From NCBI GenBank assembly GCA_015661045.1, contig JACVQG010000056.1, positions 1-10,729 of the forward strand: a stretch of 10,729 nucleotides of DNA, written 5' to 3'. A program made the translations under genes and the position numbers. The notes beneath the pieces are model-generated. The model made no database searches. It saw nothing but the letters and a program-made list of their open reading frames with translations, and was not told where the DNA came from. Below are positions 2 through 10,729 of this stretch, in pieces (positions within the stretch are counted from its first letter, which is position 1; every line of letters begins with the position of its first letter). The DNA is from Dehalococcoidia bacterium. Its GTDB lineage: Bacteria > Chloroflexota > Dehalococcoidia > JACVQG01.

Positions 2-484
2 CCCAAAAAGAATATCCTGGGCGGTCAGGGCAAGGGCTGGCTGGTCATCGAGAAGGTCCTCCAGAGGGCGGCGGTGGCCAAGTGCGCCGAGATGCTGGGC
101 GGAGCCCAGCAGGTGCTGGAGATGACCGTTGACTATGCCAAGCAGCGGGTACAGTTCGGTAAACCTATCGGCAGCTTCCAGGCTATACAGCACCACTGCG
201 CCAATATGGCTATAGATGTGGATGGCTGCCGCTTTATCACCTATCAGGCGGCATGGATGCTCAGCGAGGGAATCCCTGCCACCAAAGAGGTAGCTATGGC
301 CAAGGCATGGACATCGGAGGCATACCGCCGGGTGACAGCGTTGGGTCACCAGGTGCATGGCGGCATAGGGTTCATCAAAGACCACGATATGCAGCTTTAC
401 TACCGCCGGGCCAAGGCTGCCGAAGTAACCTACGGCGACGCCGATTTCCACCGCGAGGTGGTGGCGCGGGAAATTGGGATGTGA
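2..484 (+). CDS. acyl-CoA dehydrogenase, C-terminal part (5' end outside window)
   Basis: This is the C-terminal 160 residues of a flavin acyl-CoA dehydrogenase, which would oxidise an acyl-CoA to the enoyl-CoA and pass electrons to ETF. The frame is open from base 2 (PKKNILGGQGKGW...), so the GTG at 74 is internal and not a start. The C-terminal helical domain is clear: RVQFGKPIGSFQAIQH (FAD and dimer contacts), then QVHGGIGFIKDHDMQLYYRR. The usual active-site stretch (YEGTSEIQR in MCAD, base Glu376) reads VTYGDADFHRE here, so the Glu is replaced by Tyr in my by-eye alignment. This GDADFHRE pattern is shared by a broad group of 'acyl-CoA dehydrogenase family' proteins whose base lies elsewhere or is unknown. 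The substrate cannot be told. The gene ends 94 bases before the next gene, across a hairpin, and may belong to a separate upstream operon. It looks more GC-rich than the gene after it (44 of 60 G+C at 61-120 against 28 of 60 at 901-960). Confidence 0.9.
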   Translation, partial: PKKNILGGQGKGWLVIEKVLQRAAVAKCAEMLGGAQQVLEMTVDYAKQRVQFGKPIGSFQAIQHHCANMAIDVDGCRFITYQAAWMLSEGIPATKEVAMAKAWTSEAYRRVTALGHQVHGGIGFIKDHDMQLYYRRAKAAEVTYGDADFHREVVAREIGM

Positions 485-2693: not shown

Positions 2694-2787
2694 GTATGAG
2701 GACGAGGAACGGGAGATAAGAGAGATTTTTGAGAGCGAATTAAAGAGGAAGGGTTTAGAGTCGAAGATGCCCCGGGTGAAGCATTGA
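2671..2787 (+). pseudogene. displaced C-terminal tail of the bicupin (+1 frame)
   Basis: In the frame one base ahead of the bicupin, the sequence reads KSGGNQIEYEDE, then an acidic/basic helix (REIREIFESELKRKGLESKM), ending at TGA 2785-2787. From memory, GGxQIEYEDEDP...FEEEL is the usual C-terminus of this bicupin family, so this is the missing end of the preceding gene and not a separate gene. It has no start codon of its own. The switch must occur between about 2665 and 2680, where the run AAGCGCGAAG could hold one extra base. Removing one base gives a 341-residue protein. The restored stop overlaps the CoA-transferase TTG start (TTGA at 2784-2787), which is typical of translational coupling and supports this end as genuine. 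Confidence 0.7.
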
Positions 2788-5258
2788 AGGTTGGCCTCCC
2801 GATGAATTATCCCGATTCCACCCTGTCTCCTTACCGGGTACTTGACCTGACTGATGAAAAAGGCCACTTCTGCGGCAAGATGCTGGGTGATTTAGGGGCG
2901 GATGTCATCAAGATAGAACCTCCCGCGGGAGACCCCAGTCGAAGCACTGGCCCCTTTTACCACGACATCCCCGATAAGGAGAAGAGCCTTTCCTGGTTTG
3001 CTTTCAACACGAGCAAACGGAGCATTGTCCTGGATTTGGGAACCAAGGAAGGAAAGGCGGTCTTCAAGCGCTTAGTAGCCACATCGGATTTTATCATCGA
3101 GTCATTTTCTCCCGGCCACATGGATAAATTGGGATTGAGCTATGAAACCCTAAACGGGATTAATCCGGGGATTATCGTAATCTCCATCACACCCTTCGGG
3201 CAGACAGGCCCTTACCGCGACTTCAAGGCCCCGGACATTATACTCATGGCTATGGGCGGCCAGATGCATGGAGCGGGGGAACCTGACCGGCCTCCCGTCC
3301 GTGTCAGCCTCCCTCAAGCACTCCTTTTCGGGAGCGTACACGCTGCTCTGGGAGGAATGATTGCTCTGCAATACCGGCAGCGCACCGGGTTGGGACAGCA
3401 TGTGGATGTCTCTATACGGGAAGGGGTGCTCCGTACCCTTGGAACCGTGATCTCTTTCTGGGAGTTCGGCCGTGAACTGTGCCCGCGTATGGGGCCTTTT
3501 CGAGCCAGAGGGAAGCTCATGCAGCGGGAGGTCTGGCCGTGTAAGGACGGAGACGTGATTCTCAGCGTGATGGGAAGCGCTCATCGCAGCGGAATGGAAC
3601 CCCTGGCACAGTGGATGAAGGAGGAAGGGTGGACAGGAAAGTTCTCCAGTGTGGACTGGGAGTCCTCTAACATCCCGGAAGCGTTCGATGAAGAGGTGGC
3701 AACCTGGCAGGATGAGATTGCCCGTTTCTTTCTAACCCATACTAAAGCCGAGCTTAATGAGAGAGCTTTGAAAAGCCGCATCCCTCTATCAGCCTGCCAC
3801 ACGCCAGGCGATATCTTAGAAGATAAACAACTTACTTCAAGAGACTTCTGGGTAAATGTGGCGCATCCAGAGTTAGGTACCGCTATTACCTATCCCGGCG
3901 CTCCCTGCAAGCTATCCCTGACGCCGTGGCGCGTAAGCCGCCGTCCGCCTCTTATCGGTGAGCATACCAAGGAAATTCTCCGGGAAATAGCTTCGCTACC
4001 CATTAAAAAGACTGTGGCTCAAAACGGCGCTCAAACTCCAGTTGCATCGAGGAAAGCCCTGGAAGGGATAAAGGTAGCCGATTTTAGCTGGATTCTGGCC
4101 GGCCCTCTTGTCACCAAATCCCTGGCCGATTTTGGCGCCACTGTGGTCCGCATAGAGTCTCGAAAACGGGTTGACCCCAGCAGGGCGGGCGCCCCCTTCA
4201 AAGACGGGATCCCGGGGGTTAACCGCGGTGGTACGTTCCGTTTTCAAAATAGCAGCAAATACAGCATGGGACTTGATTTAAGCCAGCCAAAAGGGTTAGA
4301 AGTGGCCAAGAAACTGGTGGCCTGGGCTGATGTAGTGGTGGAAAATTTCGGACCCGGCACTATGGAGAGAATGGGCCTCAGCTACCGGCATTTAAAGGAA
4401 ATAAAGCCCGACATCGTTATGTTAAGCAGCAGTAACCAGGGGCAGACCGGCCCCCACCGGGAGCAGCGAGGCTTTGGCTGGAATTTGGGTGGACTGGCTG
4501 GTTTCAATCACTTCACTGGCTGGCCGGACAGGGTGGGTGTGGCGCCTAATCCGGCCTGGACCGATTTCTATGCGCCGTGGTTTGGCGCAGTGGCCCTCCT
4601 GGGAGCAATGGGGTATCGCGGCCGCACCGGAAAAGGGCAATACATTGACCTTTCCCAATATGAAGCCGGGTTGAATTTTCTGGCTGTAGCTTTGCTGGAC
4701 TATACGGCTAATGGCCGGGAGCAAATACGACAGGGGAACCGGTCTCCCCATGCAGCCCCTCACGGCGCCTACCCCTGCCGGGGCGAGGACCGGTGGTGTG
4801 TTATAGCCGTCCAAACACAGGAAGAATGGCTCGCCTTTGCACGGACTATAGGTAATCCTGACTGGGTTAAAGACTCCAAATTTGCCACCCTGGAGACTCG
4901 CAAGAAACATGAGGACGAGTTGGAAACACTGGTAGCAGCATGGTCTATCAACTTTAGTCCGGATGAGATTATGGTTAAATTGCAGGGAGCCGGGGTTCCA
5001 GCCGGGGTTGTAGAGGATACCAGTGACCTGCTGGAAAATGACCCGCAGGTGAAGCATAGGGGTTATTTTAAATACCTGAATCATCCCGAAATGGGCATGG
5101 CACTTCACCTTGATTGGCCGGCCCATTTATCTTTGACGCCGGCGCAGCTAAGAAGCGCTCCTCTTCTGGGTGAGCATACCGAAATGGTATGTAAAGAAAT
5201 CCTCGGTATGTCGGAGGGTGAATACGGGGAATTGCAGGCAACAGGCATTTTACAATAA
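2784..5258 (+). CDS. fused tandem CaiB/BaiF (class III) CoA-transferase
   Basis: This is an 824-residue protein, about twice the usual 380-420, with two complete family III CoA-transferase domains in tandem. Domain 1 (about 16-402) has LGADVIKIEPPAGDP (37-51), GLGQHVDVS (202-210) and a C-terminal PPLIGEHT (388-395). Domain 2 (about 425-815) has FGATVVRIESR (450-460), NFGPGTMERMGLSY (521-534), GKGQYIDLSQYEAGL (616-630) and a C-terminal PLLGEHTE. Where formyl-CoA transferase has its catalytic Asp169, the by-eye alignment places Glu in both halves (E213 and E627). Family members move CoA between carboxylic acids through acyl-enzyme anhydride intermediates. Two-subunit relatives such as BbsEF and SmtAB suggest the fusion replaces a heterodimer. 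The likely role is activation of an organic acid captured by the neighbouring lipoproteins (inference). The TTG start at 2784 overlaps the restored bicupin stop; ATG 2802 (residue 7) is an alternative, and neither has a strong Shine-Dalgarno sequence. Confidence 0.9.
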   Translation: MKVGLPMNYPDSTLSPYRVLDLTDEKGHFCGKMLGDLGADVIKIEPPAGDPSRSTGPFYHDIPDKEKSLSWFAFNTSKRSIVLDLGTKEGKAVFKRLVATSDFIIESFSPGHMDKLGLSYETLNGINPGIIVISITPFGQTGPYRDFKAPDIILMAMGGQMHGAGEPDRPPVRVSLPQALLFGSVHAALGGMIALQYRQRTGLGQHVDVSIREGVLRTLGTVISFWEFGRELCPRMGPFRARGKLMQREVWPCKDGDVILSVMGSAHRSGMEPLAQWMKEEGWTGKFSSVDWESSNIPEAFDEEVATWQDEIARFFLTHTKAELNERALKSRIPLSACHTPGDILEDKQLTSRDFWVNVAHPELGTAITYPGAPCKLSLTPWRVSRRPPLIGEHTKEILREIASLPIKKTVAQNGAQTPVASRKALEGIKVADFSWILAGPLVTKSLADFGATVVRIESRKRVDPSRAGAPFKDGIPGVNRGGTFRFQNSSKYSMGLDLSQPKGLEVAKKLVAWADVVVENFGPGTMERMGLSYRHLKEIKPDIVMLSSSNQGQTGPHREQRGFGWNLGGLAGFNHFTGWPDRVGVAPNPAWTDFYAPWFGAVALLGAMGYRGRTGKGQYIDLSQYEAGLNFLAVALLDYTANGREQIRQGNRSPHAAPHGAYPCRGEDRWCVIAVQTQEEWLAFARTIGNPDWVKDSKFATLETRKKHEDELETLVAAWSINFSPDEIMVKLQGAGVPAGVVEDTSDLLENDPQVKHRGYFKYLNHPEMGMALHLDWPAHLSLTPAQLRSAPLLGEHTEMVCKEILGMSEGEYGELQATGILQ

Positions 5259-5358: not shown

Positions 5359-5387
5359 TTGACAAGGCCAAAGCGCTGGGCTATGCT
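5359..5387 (+). promoter_or_regulatory. sigma70-type promoter for the second lipoprotein gene
   Basis: A perfect -35 TTGACA (5359-5364) is separated by 17 bases from a -10 TATGCT (5382-5387, four of six consensus bases). Transcription would start near 5394 and give an untranslated leader of about 90 bases before GTG 5486. Its position after the 5263-5295 hairpins suggests the second lipoprotein gene is a separate unit. Confidence 0.6.
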
Positions 5388-5473
5388 TGCCTGCAACGAT
5401 GATTTTGACGCATAGACATATGCTTCAAAAGATTCGTGGGGATATTTGTAAGCGCTGTGATAAATACAATTTG

Positions 5474-5480
5474 AGGAGGA
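5474..5480 (+). promoter_or_regulatory. ribosome binding site AGGAGGA that sets a GTG start
   Basis: AGGAGGA lies five bases before GTG 5486 (core GGAGG 5475-5479, six bases away). The frame is open further upstream to an ATG-like start near 5387. However, that would put 33 charged residues before the signal peptide and overlap the promoter, so GTG 5486 is preferred. Confidence 0.75.
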
Positions 5481-5485
5481 AACAC

Positions 5486-6652
5486 GTGAGGATAATAAGG
5501 GCATGGTTAATATTAGTTATTTTTCTGGGCCTGCTTGCAGCCTGTACCCCCCAGGCGGGCCAACAACAGTCGCCTCCTGCCAGCGTCACTGCTGCGCCAA
5601 TATCTCCGGGTACCACCGCAGGCACTCCCACCTCCAACCTCTCACCTCTTACTTCTCAGGACGCCGCCTGGGCCAAAATAGTTGAGGCGGCAAAGAAGGA
5701 AGGCAAAGTTAATGCCTATTCCTTTACCTGGGTAGGCGATATCGGCCTGGCGGTAGCCAAAGCTTTCAAGGAGAAATACGGAATCACCTTAGGAATTATG
5801 ACGGGCCGGGGGGCCGAATTTGCCGAAAGAATAAAGACCGAGAGGCGTTTGGGCCAGCAGGTGGCAGATATGACAGAGGGTAGCGTCGGGCTTATAGACA
5901 ATATGAGATTAGATAAGGTTCTGACATCTGTATATGATGATTTGCCTTCGCTTAGGGAAAAAGGCGTTTGGTTGGTAGAGCCTACGGTCGTGGACCCGCA
6001 GGATAAAGCTAATCTGACATGGCGGGTCCTGGCCTATACACCTTATATAAACCCCAAGTTAGTCAAGCCTTCCGAAACGCCCCAATACTGGAAAGACCTG
6101 TTAACTCCCGCATGGAAGGGTAAGATGGGCATGAACGACCCCCGGCTGACTACTTCCTCATATCAAATGATAGTTGTCTTGATGGACAGCAAGGTCTGGG
6201 ATGAAGATTACATTCGGGCATTGTACCGGCAGAATCCACGCTTCTATGTGACCGGAGCGGAAGCTTTTCCAGCGCTGGCCCGTGGAGAAATCAACCTGGT
6301 AGTGGACGGTGCAGATGCCAATGCCGGCCGGTTTGCGCTGGAGGGCGCCCCTATCCAGGCCATTGATATAAAGGATGGGACACTGCTTACTACAGCCTCG
6401 ATCGCCGCTATTACCGGTGGACCCAATCCCAATGCAACACGGGTTCTCCTTAACTGGCTTTTTAGCCCGGAAGGACAAAGCATAGCCGGTAAAGCCCAGG
6501 GGAACAAGATGGTACGCAAGGATATCCCCGATTTCCGTCCCGAAGCCCTTCAAGCGCAAATCACCAAACCTCTGGTAATAACTGTAAAGCAACTCGATAA
6601 ATCTACCGAGATGTTCCGTGAAAAATGGTTTGATAAGCTGGTGGGAAGATAG
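5486..6652 (+). CDS. ABC-type substrate-binding lipoprotein, paralogue of the one at 579-1733
   Basis: This is a 388-residue extracellular solute-binding lipoprotein. From GTG 5486 it begins MRIIRAWLILVIFLGLLAAC, a compact signal peptide with lipobox LLAAC and the lipidated Cys at residue 20. A Pro/Ser/Thr/Gln-rich tether follows (about 21-56), then the binding domain opening with LTSQDAAWAKIVEAAKKEG (55-73). Blocks shared with the first lipoprotein include KDLLTPAWKGK, LARGE, EGAPIQ, PNATRVLLNWLFSPEGQS and RKDIPDF. The pair therefore arose by duplication, but they differ across the ligand-facing middle, so their ligands may differ. The gene has its own promoter and lies downstream of the CoA-transferase gene. 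No transporter membrane subunits follow; the next 576 bases are repeats. COG1840 proteins bind ferric iron, thiamine, phosphonates or organic anions, and the sequence does not tell which. Confidence 0.88.
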   Translation: MRIIRAWLILVIFLGLLAACTPQAGQQQSPPASVTAAPISPGTTAGTPTSNLSPLTSQDAAWAKIVEAAKKEGKVNAYSFTWVGDIGLAVAKAFKEKYGITLGIMTGRGAEFAERIKTERRLGQQVADMTEGSVGLIDNMRLDKVLTSVYDDLPSLREKGVWLVEPTVVDPQDKANLTWRVLAYTPYINPKLVKPSETPQYWKDLLTPAWKGKMGMNDPRLTTSSYQMIVVLMDSKVWDEDYIRALYRQNPRFYVTGAEAFPALARGEINLVVDGADANAGRFALEGAPIQAIDIKDGTLLTTASIAAITGGPNPNATRVLLNWLFSPEGQSIAGKAQGNKMVRKDIPDFRPEALQAQITKPLVITVKQLDKSTEMFREKWFDKLVGR

Positions 6653-7228: not shown

Positions 7229-7819
7229 ATGTCTGAATATTGTGAAAAGATTTTAGCCGGGTCCAGGTCATGGATAGGCAGGGAGACGAACCTTATATGG
7301 GGACGGTATCCGGTGGAGCGGGAGCCTATAAGAAGGTGGTGTCACATGGTAAGGTGCGAGAACCCGCTCTATCTGGATGAAGAATACGCTAAAAAAACTA
7401 TCTGGGGGGGCATAATATGTCCGCCATTGATGATCCCTATATTTGGACTCCGGCGCTACGGGCCGAGCTCCAGCGGGCCTGAGATTGATTGGCCTCCGCT
7501 AAAAGAGGGGGAAGAAGACGACTCAGCCATGCTGGTGCCGCCGACGGCTGGCAAAAGCGTGGTCAATTTAGGCGGCCCGATAGAGTTTGTAAAAGTTGTC
7601 CGGCTGGGGGACAGGATTGGCAAAAAGGAAAAGGTCGTAGACATTTATTTAAAACAAATCCGCTTTGATCCCGAAGCCTTCTGGATTGTTAGCGAGACAA
7701 CCTATCTTAACCAGTATCTCGATCCTGTCGCAATCCTGCACAACACACTGGTGAAACACCGAAGCCCCGAAGAGATAAAGGCCACTACACCTGAGCAATT
7801 AACTCAGATACAGTCTTAA
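7229..7819 (+). CDS. hot-dog fold dehydratase subunit (FAS1-like / MaoC N-terminal type)
   Basis: This 196-residue protein resembles the N-terminal hot-dog domain of MaoC-like and HadA-type hydratases. It has RWCHMVRCENPLYLDEEYA (36-54), matching the family's GDxNPxYxDExYA pattern, then GGIICPPLM (60-68), matching the G.IAPPTF loop. A second conserved strand region follows from about residue 112. In this family the N-type subunit usually shapes the acyl-chain tunnel and pairs with a catalytic hot-dog partner, here the next gene 30 bases downstream. It is longer than a minimal hot-dog domain, with a Pro/Glu-rich insert (about 78-105) and a polar C-terminal tail. The start is fixed by AAGGAGGA (7215-7222), six bases before ATG 7229. 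It is the first gene after the repeat element. The expected role is half of an enoyl-CoA hydratase or 3-hydroxyacyl-CoA dehydratase; the substrate is unknown. Confidence 0.8.
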   Translation: MSEYCEKILAGSRSWIGRETNLIWGRYPVEREPIRRWCHMVRCENPLYLDEEYAKKTIWGGIICPPLMIPIFGLRRYGPSSSGPEIDWPPLKEGEEDDSAMLVPPTAGKSVVNLGGPIEFVKVVRLGDRIGKKEKVVDIYLKQIRFDPEAFWIVSETTYLNQYLDPVAILHNTLVKHRSPEEIKATTPEQLTQIQS

Positions 7820-8508: not shown

Positions 8509-10014
8509 ATGTTTTCGATAGACAAACTAAGAGAAATAGAAAAGAAAAAGAAAGAGTGGCAGGAAGGAACTCTTAAAGAATCTCTGAAGAGGTTCAAAGC
8601 CACGGAAAGCCCCAACAGGTTCTATACCCCTCTGGATATTCCCGATTTTGATTTTCTGGAAAAGGTCGGTTTCCCCGGCGAGTACCCTTATACAGCCAGC
8701 ACCTATCCCAGCATGGTCCCGGGCACCGGCCCCGTGAAAGGTGGAGGTCCGTTTGCTGTGGCAGGCCTGGCCAGGGCAGGTCGTTACTCCGGCTATGCCA
8801 CTGCCGAAGATACCAGGGATTATTATAAAGATATGATTGCCCGGGGCTGGCGGGTGGGGGCTAATCTGGCTTTTGACCTGCCTACCCAATGTGGTTATGA
8901 CTCCGATCATCCCATGGCCGAGGGAGAGGTCGGGAAAACCGGCGTAGCCATAAATACCCTCCAGGATATGGAAACAATCTTTGAACCTTTCATCGGGGAC
9001 CTGGGGTTGGACAGGGTTGCCACAAATATGAACATCAATGCTCCTGCAATTATCATGCTCTCGATGTTTATCACAGTAGCGGAGAAAAAAGGCGTTCCTC
9101 TGAATAAACTCCGGGGCACCCCCCAGAACGATATCCTTAAAGAATACACAGGACGCGGTACCTACATATTTCCACCCGGACCCGCTTTACGCCTGAGCCG
9201 AGATAGCTTTGTTTACCTCAGGAAAAATGTGCCATCCCTGAATATTATCAGCATTTCCGCCCATTTCCGGGACGGCGGCGCCGATAGCGTAAAGTCATTT
9301 GGCTATCAATTCTCAAACGCCATCGCCTATGCTCAGGTTGCTCAGGAAGGCGGCCTGGACGTGGACGACTTTCTACCTTACTTCACCCTGGGGACAGGCG
9401 GATGTCATACCATGGAAATCCTCCATGCTATCGCGCAAATCCGCGCCTCCCGGAGGGTCTGGGCTAAGCTGACCAGGGAACGCCTCAAGGCTAAAGACCC
9501 GAAGAGCTGGATTGTACGTACCATACCTGGGCGGCTCCTGGCTAATCTCACCACCAGGCAACGGCCCTTGAATAACTTCACGCGGACAGTGCTGGGGGGA
9601 GTGGCCATTGCCCTCAGCGGCGACGTTCCTGCCGTTGGACCCGGCTATGACGAGCCATTGGGTCTGGGCACCAGCCTGGAGGCGCAGCAGCTCTCCGAGG
9701 ATGCAGCCCGGATTCTCTTCCATGAGGCCAGGCTTTGTGATGTCATAGACCCGTTTGCCGGCTCGTATTATATGGAGGCGTTGACCAACCAGGTGGAAGA
9801 GGAAATCTGGAAAACAATTGGAAGGATAGATGCTGTAGGAGGGGCAGTAGCCGCCATTGAAACCGGGTTCTTGCAGCGCGAGATTGCCCAGAACGCCTAT
9901 AAAATCCAGAAGGAGATTGAAACCGGAGAAAGGGTGATAGTGGGCGTAAATAACAGCAGGAGCCCCATCCCTATGACCCCAAAAGGCGGCAGCAGGCTGA
10001 AGAAAAACAGATAG
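8509..10014 (+). CDS. divergent coenzyme-B12-dependent acyl-CoA mutase, large (catalytic) subunit, frameshifted near 3' end
   Basis: This 501-residue frame has the methylmalonyl-CoA mutase TIM-barrel scaffold: LEKVGFPGEYPYT (50-62), AFDLPTQCGYDSDHP (121-135), RGTPQNDILKEYTGRGTYIFPP (202-223) and DPFAGSYYMEALT (414-426). It lacks the C-terminal cobalamin domain, so like two-gene mutases it needs a separate small B12 subunit, not seen here. R216 matches the carboxylate-binding Arg207 of Propionibacterium MCM. Other active-site parts differ. After YPSM (66-69) there are about 14 extra Gly/Ala/Pro-rich residues before GRYSGYAT. The Tyr89 equivalent appears to be V70. The SISGYH loop reads SISAHF (248-253). 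The HTNS-DEA loop reads VGPGYDEP (376-383). The substrate is therefore probably not methylmalonyl-CoA; it may be another branched acyl-CoA, perhaps a substituted malonyl type because the Arg is kept (inference). From about residue 483 the frame departs from the family until TAG 10012. AGAGGT (8494-8499) is a modest ribosome site. Confidence 0.88.
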   Translation: MFSIDKLREIEKKKKEWQEGTLKESLKRFKATESPNRFYTPLDIPDFDFLEKVGFPGEYPYTASTYPSMVPGTGPVKGGGPFAVAGLARAGRYSGYATAEDTRDYYKDMIARGWRVGANLAFDLPTQCGYDSDHPMAEGEVGKTGVAINTLQDMETIFEPFIGDLGLDRVATNMNINAPAIIMLSMFITVAEKKGVPLNKLRGTPQNDILKEYTGRGTYIFPPGPALRLSRDSFVYLRKNVPSLNIISISAHFRDGGADSVKSFGYQFSNAIAYAQVAQEGGLDVDDFLPYFTLGTGGCHTMEILHAIAQIRASRRVWAKLTRERLKAKDPKSWIVRTIPGRLLANLTTRQRPLNNFTRTVLGGVAIALSGDVPAVGPGYDEPLGLGTSLEAQQLSEDAARILFHEARLCDVIDPFAGSYYMEALTNQVEEEIWKTIGRIDAVGGAVAAIETGFLQREIAQNAYKIQKEIETGERVIVGVNNSRSPIPMTPKGGSRLKKNR

Positions 10015-10217
10015 CCAAGCTGCATAAGGTGAAACGGGGACGGGACAACAGGTCTGTATCCGCCTCGCTGAAGCGGCTAAAGGATGCAGCCGCCGATGAA
10101 AAGGTAAATCTTTTCCCTCCGGTAATAGAAGCGGTGAAACTGTATGCCACGGTAGGCGAGATCTGCGATAGTTTGCGAGAGGTTTTTGGAGAGTACCACG
10201 AATATGGAGTGATATAG
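9954..10217 (+). pseudogene. displaced C-terminal segment of the acyl-CoA mutase (frameshift continuation)
   Basis: In the frame one base behind the mutase, the sequence reads QQEPHPYDPKRRQQAEEKQI and continues AKLHKVKRGRDN, ending with FPPVIEAVKLYATVGEICD and SLREVFGEY. The last part is the standard C-terminus of MCM catalytic subunits (YATLGEICDALREVFGEY), so this belongs to the upstream gene. A frame stop at 9951-9953 bounds the switch to about 9952-9960, where one base seems missing after GTAAATAA. Restoring it gives a protein of about 569 residues, normal for large subunits of two-subunit mutases. GTG 10029 could start a short 62-residue peptide, but nothing supports independent translation. 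Confidence 0.85.
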
Positions 10218-10219
10218 TA

Positions 10220-10729
10220 ATGGATTCAGTATCTAAAGATGAGCTACTGGTAGAAATAAAGGCCTTTATCTGTACAATTACCATCAACCGCCCGCACAGA
10301 AGAAACGCTTTGAATGCCGATGTGCTTACTAAACTCGGTGATACGTTGAACTCCTTCAAGGCAACAGGAGATGTCAGGGCTGTTATCCTGAGGGGTGAAG
10401 GCGAGGAGGCTTTCTCCTCGGGGATGGATTTGCTCAGCAGCAGGGAAGGTGGGGAGGGAGAAAGACGTAAGTCGGCTCTTCCCTATGCCAGGGAGAGTAT
10501 TATTAATTGTCCCTGTCCGGTTATCGCCATGATTTTTGGCTATGTTGCCGGGGCAGGCTGCGACCTGGCGGTCACCTGTGATTTCAGAATTGCAGCCGAT
10601 AATGCTCAGTTTGCTATGCCCCCGGTAAAACTGGGACTGGTCTATGATTATAAGGCAATCCAGCGTTTCATTAACTTAATAGGACTGGGGAATGCCAAAG
10701 AGCTTTTTCTAACAGCCAAATTTGTAGAT
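10220..10729 (+). CDS. enoyl-CoA hydratase/isomerase family protein (crotonase fold), 3' end outside window
   Basis: The first 170 residues of a crotonase-superfamily enzyme start at ATG 10220, two bases after the restored mutase stop, with GGAG (10206-10209) as a ribosome site. Family motifs: ITINRPHRRNALNADV (20-35), AVILRGEGEEAFSSGMDL (oxyanion-hole region with SSGMDL), then GYVAGAGCDLAVTCDFRIAA and PPVKLGLVYD. Rat crotonase uses two Glu residues, in GGCEL (Glu144) and QPEILLG (Glu164). Here the first is Asp (GAGCDL) and the second is Pro (MPPVKLG). A normal syn-hydration is therefore doubtful. Isomerase, hydrolase or lyase chemistry, or a hydratase with different residues, would fit better. 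Its tight coupling to the mutase suggests that it acts just before or after the carbon-skeleton rearrangement. Confidence 0.88.
   Translation, partial: MDSVSKDELLVEIKAFICTITINRPHRRNALNADVLTKLGDTLNSFKATGDVRAVILRGEGEEAFSSGMDLLSSREGGEGERRKSALPYARESIINCPCPVIAMIFGYVAGAGCDLAVTCDFRIAADNAQFAMPPVKLGLVYDYKAIQRFINLIGLGNAKELFLTAKFVD

Follow-up and report, generated by a model that had tools for sequence, protein, structure and literature searches.

A vitamin B12-dependent acyl-CoA mutase from Dehalococcoidia with a conventional catalytic core, a rebuilt substrate entrance and a probably different substrate

Which acid is rearranged by the vitamin B12-dependent acyl-CoA mutase encoded near the end of contig JACVQG010000056.1 of a Dehalococcoidia bacterium? 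Few substrates are known for enzymes of this type, and each new one (ethylmalonyl-CoA, 2-hydroxyisobutyrate, indoleacetate) has opened a pathway. The stretch analysed, here called the window, is the entire contig (10,729 nucleotides, C180 in our numbering) from a metagenome-assembled genome (MAG) of 2.14 Mb, 373 contigs and 67% completeness. Judged from its sequence, the open reading frame (ORF) at 8509-10014 is a genuine large subunit of an adenosylcobalamin (AdoCbl)-dependent acyl-CoA mutase and belongs to an uncharacterised clade of this known family. The substrate entrance is rebuilt while the catalytic core is conventional, and the acid that it rearranges probably differs from those of its well-known relatives, being perhaps bulkier. 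The gene is read in two parts.

8509-10014, forward strand: B12 acyl-CoA mutase large subunit, a 501-amino-acid open frame with the final 20 or so residues out of frame; above cut-off for PF01642 and TIGR00641
9954-10217, forward strand: C-terminal tail of the mutase gene in frame +3, following a change of frame with about 13 residues lost; seen by tblastn of homologue P0001 (match 9954-10214)

The scores of 370 bits against PF01642 (cut-off 22.1) and 390 bits against TIGR00641 (cut-off 303.8) confirm the methylmalonyl-CoA mutase (MCM) scaffold recognised in an earlier, sequence-only reading of this DNA. The protein has the TIM-barrel fold of the mutases; the nearest solved structure is 2-hydroxyisobutyryl-CoA mutase (HCM, PDB code 4r3u, 2.4e-82) and the fold fits MCM equally well. 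The NCBIfam model PRK09426 gives 327 bits against a cut-off of 876, the subunit covering only positions 42-468 of a model of 721, and the ORF carries no fused B12 domain.

Is the gene intact? The sequence-only reading had called for a frame correction, and a frame change is indeed present. The intact homologue P0001 (581 residues, 98% identical) aligns in frame +1 over 8509-9966 and in frame +3 over 9954-10214, and relative to it about 13 residues are gone at the junction, 9951-9966. This loss would suit a decaying or mis-assembled gene, in which case the clade would be real and the function of this copy moot, and another mutase gene of the same genome (L007, G000:C32:9617-11232) is likewise split, by an in-frame TAG. 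Against decay stand the intact state of P0001, the match of 478/486 and 83/87 residues on the two sides of the junction, and the proneness of a 373-contig MAG to assembly error. We regard a defective gene as distinctly unlikely. All mutase residues compared with references precede the break.

The residue map derives from alignment with MCM of E. coli and P. shermanii, HCM and ethylmalonyl-CoA mutase (ECM). P. shermanii numbering is chain position +1 and human numbering chain position +10, the latter offset having been checked on Arg228 against a primer printed in PMC10356863. Counts out of 120 refer to the best 120 of 7,999 scored candidates. The relevant sites are as follows.

8716-8784, forward strand: residues 70-92, enlarged Gly/Ala/Pro-rich stretch just ahead of the Tyr89 equivalent (alignment)
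8785-8787, forward strand: Y93, equivalent to MCM Tyr89 and human Tyr110 (alignment; 120/120 listed homologues)
9154-9156, forward strand: R216, equivalent to MCM Arg207 and human Arg228 (alignment; 119/120 listed homologues)
9247-9264, forward strand: SISAH loop, containing H252 and lacking one residue relative to SISGYH (alignment; deletion in 7/120)
9394-9408, forward strand: TGGCH stretch, residues 296-300, exceeding MCM by two residues and the wider clade by one (alignment)
9634-9657, forward strand: VGPGYDEP in place of HTNSxDEA, containing E382 (alignment)

The Tyr89, Arg207 and His244 set of MCM is present in the window as Y93, R216 and H252, the last also kept in 119/120 homologues; the conserved glutamate E382, Gln206 and Arg89 are each kept in 120/120. 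The signature of HCM, isobutyryl-CoA mutase (ICM) and IcmF, with Gln at the Arg207 site and Ile or Phe at the Tyr89 site, is absent from the window, which has Arg and Tyr. The titles of PDB entries that name Y89F and H244A are consistent with Tyr89 and His244 being active-site residues that have been studied, and we otherwise take their roles in MCM as commonly understood. Nothing on point about contacts of the three residues was found among the literature matches listed. Human Arg228 is described as forming a salt bridge to malonyl-CoA, with activity undetectable in R228Q (PMC10356863); R216, retained at the same site, therefore suits a carboxylate-bearing substrate.

Two claims of the sequence-only reading fare differently here. 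Its assignment of R216 to Arg207, a position held by Gln in HCM, is correct, and the part of its proposal in which a retained Arg suits a malonyl-type substrate agrees with the human enzyme as described in PMC10356863. Its placing of the Tyr89 site at V70 is rejected: P. shermanii Tyr89 (chain position 88) falls on Y93 in RYSGY, and V70 aligns with the Tyr equivalent to human Tyr100. With Tyr89 retained, the argument from its loss to a larger side group fails.

The entrance is where the enzyme departs from its relatives. Between M69 and Y93 lie 23 residues, 14 of them Gly, Ala or Pro, against ten in E. coli MCM and HCM, a net gain of 13 that bears out the insertion of about 14 residues reported earlier. 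The same gap spans 16 to 26 residues (mode 24) in the 120 listed homologues, so the enlarged stretch is a trait of the whole listed group. The insertion is located between the equivalents of human Tyr100 and Tyr110. The human Y100C change is placed in the substrate-binding region, close to the substrate channel, yet raised the KM for AdoCbl, and in the text of that study no mutant had a large KM increase for methylmalonyl-CoA (PMC4441004). A position near the channel, as first suggested, is thus supported in part, by the closeness of Tyr100 to the channel described there. The sequence-only reading had set against itself the case of a mere surface loop with the active-site residues conserved. 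Half of that case applies, since none of Tyr, Arg and His has been lost; homology does not point to a mere surface loop.

The other loop changes it listed also hold. The SISGYH loop is one residue shorter, reading SISAH with its His kept as H252, and HTNSxDEA is replaced by VGPGYDEP; in addition the RTIPGRL stretch is one residue longer than in MCM. We considered the shortened His loop as a hallmark of the whole group and rejected this; because the deletion occurs in just seven of the 120 listed homologues (P0001-P0005, P0007 and P0008), it is a trait of a small subclade.

Where does the enzyme sit among the mutases? A FastTree phylogeny was calculated from 546 columns and 195 tips, to which 258 sequences had been reduced by thinning with an 85% identity threshold; its references were one HCM, one ECM, two IcmF and a few MCM sequences, without IaaG and alkylmalonyl-CoA mutases. 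The window falls in an 85-tip clade (support 1.0, stem 0.42) marked by the enlarged stretch. Besides the window it contains every one of the 69 retained P-numbered homologues, together with 15 tips that came from fetched loci. Outside lie MCM (E. coli and P. shermanii), ECM, IcmF, and HCM with its relatives carrying Phe and Gln at the Tyr89 and Arg207 sites. The tree that the sequence-only reading proposed as a check thus places the window apart from the MCM, HCM/ICM, ECM and IcmF references; neither characterised MCM joins the clade, and the single ECM reference groups with MCM. Nested within the clade is a window subclade of seven tips (support 1.0, stem 0.20). A clade mutase was found in 11 of 60 related genomes, the window's own included. 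A near relative (P0004; locus L011) comes from a Chloroflexi groundwater MAG whose contig is also present as genome G048, of the same class as the window's genome. No publication describing this clade, by title or start of abstract, was found among the matches listed, which is weak evidence as subscription papers are thinly covered.

Could this nevertheless be an ordinary MCM with a drifted entrance, the same substrate and a role in propionate metabolism? The MCM catalytic set is intact and the fold agrees with MCM as well as with HCM. The long stem of the clade (0.42) speaks against it, as does the presence in the same genome of two paralogues with the Tyr/Arg/His set, L001 and L002, among the ordinary mutases. 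Gene context, considered below, adds to these objections, and we judge an ordinary MCM unlikely. PF01642 matches the MAG 15 times, over roughly a dozen genes or gene pieces; three of its other mutases (L004, L005 and L006) have F/Q/S, Y/R/V and N/E/S at the Tyr89/Arg207/His244 positions.

The following genes of the window accompany the mutase.

10220-10729, forward strand: crotonase-fold protein, truncated by the contig end; Tyr at ScpB Tyr140, Pro at the hydratase Glu, Met at ScpB His66
2784-5258, forward strand: fused double family III (CaiB-type) CoA-transferase, 824 amino acids, PF02515 in two stretches
7229-7819, forward strand: MaoC/FAS1-type dehydratase-like protein, PF13452
7844-8287, forward strand: MaoC-like protein, weak (PF01575, 22.3 bits against a cut-off of 27)
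2-484, forward strand: C-terminal part of an acyl-CoA dehydrogenase, truncated by the contig start, PF00441

The crotonase gene directly follows the mutase gene, the contig ending inside it, and the CaiB pair lies upstream; at L011 the genes are ordered mutase, crotonase, B12 subunit, CaiB. Neighbours were counted within 9 kb of 18 clade mutases, the window included, and of 78 mutase loci outside the clade, each locus contributing one mutase (there are three at L128, and L011 and L123 denote the same place). Fifteen of the 18 clade loci were placed by the tree or by identity to a tip's locus, and L100, L131 and L135 by 51-56% identity. CaiB-type CoA-transferases are near 9/18 clade mutases and 0/78 outside, MmgE/PrpD proteins near 10/18 against 1/78, crotonases near 6/18 against 2/78 and a radical S-adenosylmethionine (radical-SAM)/DUF512 gene near 4/18 against 0/78. 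B12 subunit genes (12/18 against 45/78) and MaoC (2/18 against 1/78) were also counted. MeaB shows the reverse pattern, 2/18 against 27/78 (P 0.04), which together with the near absence of CaiB and PrpD outside the clade argues against an ordinary MCM. Among the 20 mutases of the same class outside the clade, CaiB, PrpD and the radical-SAM gene are each found near none. The best NCBIfam models for the two halves of the window CoA-transferase are mesaconate and glutarate CoA-transferases, both below cut-off, which would fit C4-C5 dicarboxylates.

Two extracellular solute-binding proteins and a cupin are encoded at 579-1733, 1749-2693 and 5387-6652, co-directional with the mutase; two kinds of solute-binding protein gene recur by clade mutases (3/18 and 4/18, against 0/78 outside). 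Upstream of a close relative of the window mutase (L122:1300-7741) are three UbiD-family decarboxylase genes, two confirmed by Pfam and the third by a custom hidden Markov model (HMM).

We tentatively propose B12-dependent rearrangement and decarboxylation of a CoA-activated substituted succinate, in a cycle like that of the E. coli sbm operon with another substrate, a reading that we consider quite possible though far from secure. The family III CoA-transferase would convert a substituted succinate, or a comparable dicarboxylate, into its CoA ester. The window ORF would supply the substrate-binding subunit of a two-subunit mutase; the gene for the B12 subunit lies downstream in relatives and presumably past the contig end here. 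This mutase would shift the thioester group, yielding the corresponding substituted methylmalonyl-CoA with its free carboxylate held by R216. The enlarged stretch, residues 70-92, would adapt the acyl/CoA entrance to a substituent that is bulkier or more polar. The neighbouring crotonase would then decarboxylate this product and the CoA-transferase recycle the CoA. A cycle of this kind, acting on succinate, is how E. coli scpA-scpB-scpC is described in PMC5512728. An epimerase proved necessary for making propionate from glucose with the E. coli scp genes, according to the same source, so caution applies to the cycle proposed here too.

Does the crotonase look like a decarboxylase? Sequences were aligned with E. 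coli ScpB, PaaF, PaaG and CaiD, 34 of 46 matches being kept after removal of duplicates; the ten clade crotonases come from clade-mutase loci or, at L221, from a radical-SAM locus in a clade genome. ScpB Tyr140 is present in 8/10 clade crotonases against 0/27 controls (Fisher P 1.2e-6), the latter comprising 17 other crotonases of the same genome, seven by mutases outside the clade and three E. coli hydratases/isomerase. A distant copy at L133 has Ala there. The hydratase Glu (ScpB position 133) is missing in all ten, replaced by Pro or Ala in nine and Gly in one. The truncated window crotonase scores 98.5 bits against the methylmalonyl-CoA decarboxylase model NF008506 (cut-off 257).

Several points weigh against the proposed cycle. 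In the first L011 crotonase the Tyr140 site is occupied by His, and the missing Glu is weak evidence because 17/27 control crotonases also lack it. ScpB His66, which we take to be a catalytic residue, is Met in the window and Met, Ile, Tyr, Phe, Leu or Gly across the clade crotonases. Six intact relatives reach 145.5-201 bits with NF008506, short of its cut-off, and the best model for all six is an enoyl-CoA hydratase subfamily, itself below cut-off. Given the loss of His66 and these model scores, decarboxylation is an inference. The crotonase enrichment fails against the control of the same class, where 3/20 mutases carry one (P 0.17), and no crotonase was seen at L122 with the context HMMs. 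These HMMs were built partly from clade loci and the loci are mutually related, so the context P values are too small. MmgE/PrpD is absent from the window, whose contig ends ahead of any B12 subunit gene, and the frame-broken mutase copy might be inactive. The best B12 gene elsewhere in the genome, on contig C205, was considered as partner and rejected; it adjoins epimerase-like genes (read from sequence) and is therefore probably the partner of an ordinary MCM. Lastly, a substituted succinate is a predicted substrate. A different substrate, as the sequence-only reading held, is still likely, mainly on the evidence of clade and gene context, its argument from Tyr89 having fallen away.

An alternative is an aryl- or alkylsuccinyl-CoA mutase of the IaaGH kind that feeds an acyl-CoA dehydrogenase and not a decarboxylating crotonase. 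IaaGH acts at the phenylsuccinyl-CoA/benzylmalonyl-CoA step of indoleacetate degradation, with the CoA-transferase IaaL and the decarboxylating acyl-CoA dehydrogenase IaaF as partners (PMC8360864). The window does encode both a family III CoA-transferase and, at 2-484, part of an acyl-CoA dehydrogenase; such dehydrogenases are, on the other hand, not enriched by clade mutases (2/18 against 5/78). Glycyl radical enzymes like pyruvate formate-lyase (PFL), the superfamily of the fumarate-adding, succinate-making enzymes, occur in 6/11 clade genomes including that of the window, and were not found in the other five. The best of the window's genome matches PDB chain 8iof, whose deposited name is benzylsuccinate synthase alpha subunit, at 4.0e-148; it is closer to choline lyase (2.9e-184) and far from MasD (3.4e-85) and TutD (2.5e-65). 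Four such enzymes from four genomes (G000, G031, G048 and G040) fall under the cut-off of every NCBIfam model listed. A link of the clade to fumarate-adding glycyl radical enzymes is not supported, and we think an IaaGH-type role rather unlikely. There are 46 PFL-like matches in the clade genomes (24 in G031, 12 in G048 and three in the window's genome), of which four were examined.

The clade has a further association, with radical-SAM/PDZ proteins, in part with DUF512, encoded by clade mutases.

L124:5957-7765: radical-SAM and PDZ domains (Pfam)
L133:11177-13009: protein of the same kind
L134:5031-6728: radical-SAM and PDZ domains (Pfam); DUF512 match of 23.2 bits, just under the cut-off of 25
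L012:6994-9045: radical-SAM and PDZ domains (Pfam)

DUF512 domains are described as binding cobalamin, the role of the PDZ domain being open, and the word 'mutase' is absent from the main text of that paper (PMC11659888). The close radical-SAM subfamily occurs in 5/60 related genomes, all five within the ten other clade-mutase genomes (hypergeometric 5.0e-5), and in 3/400 Chloroflexota genomes (3.8e-7), all three among the four, the window's own included, with a mutase at least 59% identical to P0010. It was not found in the window's genome or G048, the carriers of the window subclade, nor in G003, G004, G031 and G040. The link is therefore to part of the clade and not to the window enzyme, since the first two genomes lack the subfamily. 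At L222:6435-12147 (G051) the radical-SAM gene lies between electron-transfer-flavoprotein-like and HyuA/HyuB-like genes, as read from the sequence.

These associations would suit, though we find the idea doubtful, a clade that represents an anaerobic pathway, so far undescribed, for succinates that are bulky or carry several carboxyl groups. In such a route the acid would be prepared by the MmgE/PrpD enzyme and, in part of the clade, by the PDZ-DUF512 cobalamin-binding radical-SAM protein, loaded by the family III CoA-transferase, rearranged by the mutase through its enlarged entrance and decarboxylated by a Tyr140 crotonase. If true, two distinct B12 radical chemistries would be joined in one pathway and the DUF512 radical-SAM proteins would gain a metabolic context; the co-occurrence in the clade makes the role of this cobalamin radical-SAM family approachable. 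With few substrates known for the B12 acyl-CoA mutases, a deep clade whose chemistry is intact but whose entrance differs is also a direct and testable source of a new carbon-skeleton rearrangement in uncultured bacteria.

Comparison with known systems places the window enzyme among, and apart from, its relatives. HCM (PDB code 4r3u) has Ile and Gln at the Tyr89 and Arg207 sites, where the window has Tyr and Arg; it has ten residues before the Tyr89 site and an intact SGYH loop, against 23 and a shortened loop. Relative to MCM (human, P. shermanii and E. coli ScpA) the window enzyme lacks the fused B12 domain, has 13 more entrance residues and a replaced HTNS loop, and keeps different gene neighbours. 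ECM (L139, from Ruegeria, annotated 'protein meaA') likewise keeps Tyr, Arg and His but groups with MCM, outside the window clade. IaaGH, a benzylmalonyl-CoA mutase compared here by description, also has a CoA-transferase partner in an acid-degradation pathway, whereas its other partner is a decarboxylating dehydrogenase (PMC8360864). The E. coli sbm operon (scpA-argK-scpB-scpC) similarly groups a mutase, a crotonase-fold partner and a CoA-transferase; it differs in that the window-type CoA-transferase belongs to family III and the relatives have a separate B12 subunit, while the clade crotonases mostly keep Tyr140 of ScpB but not His66.
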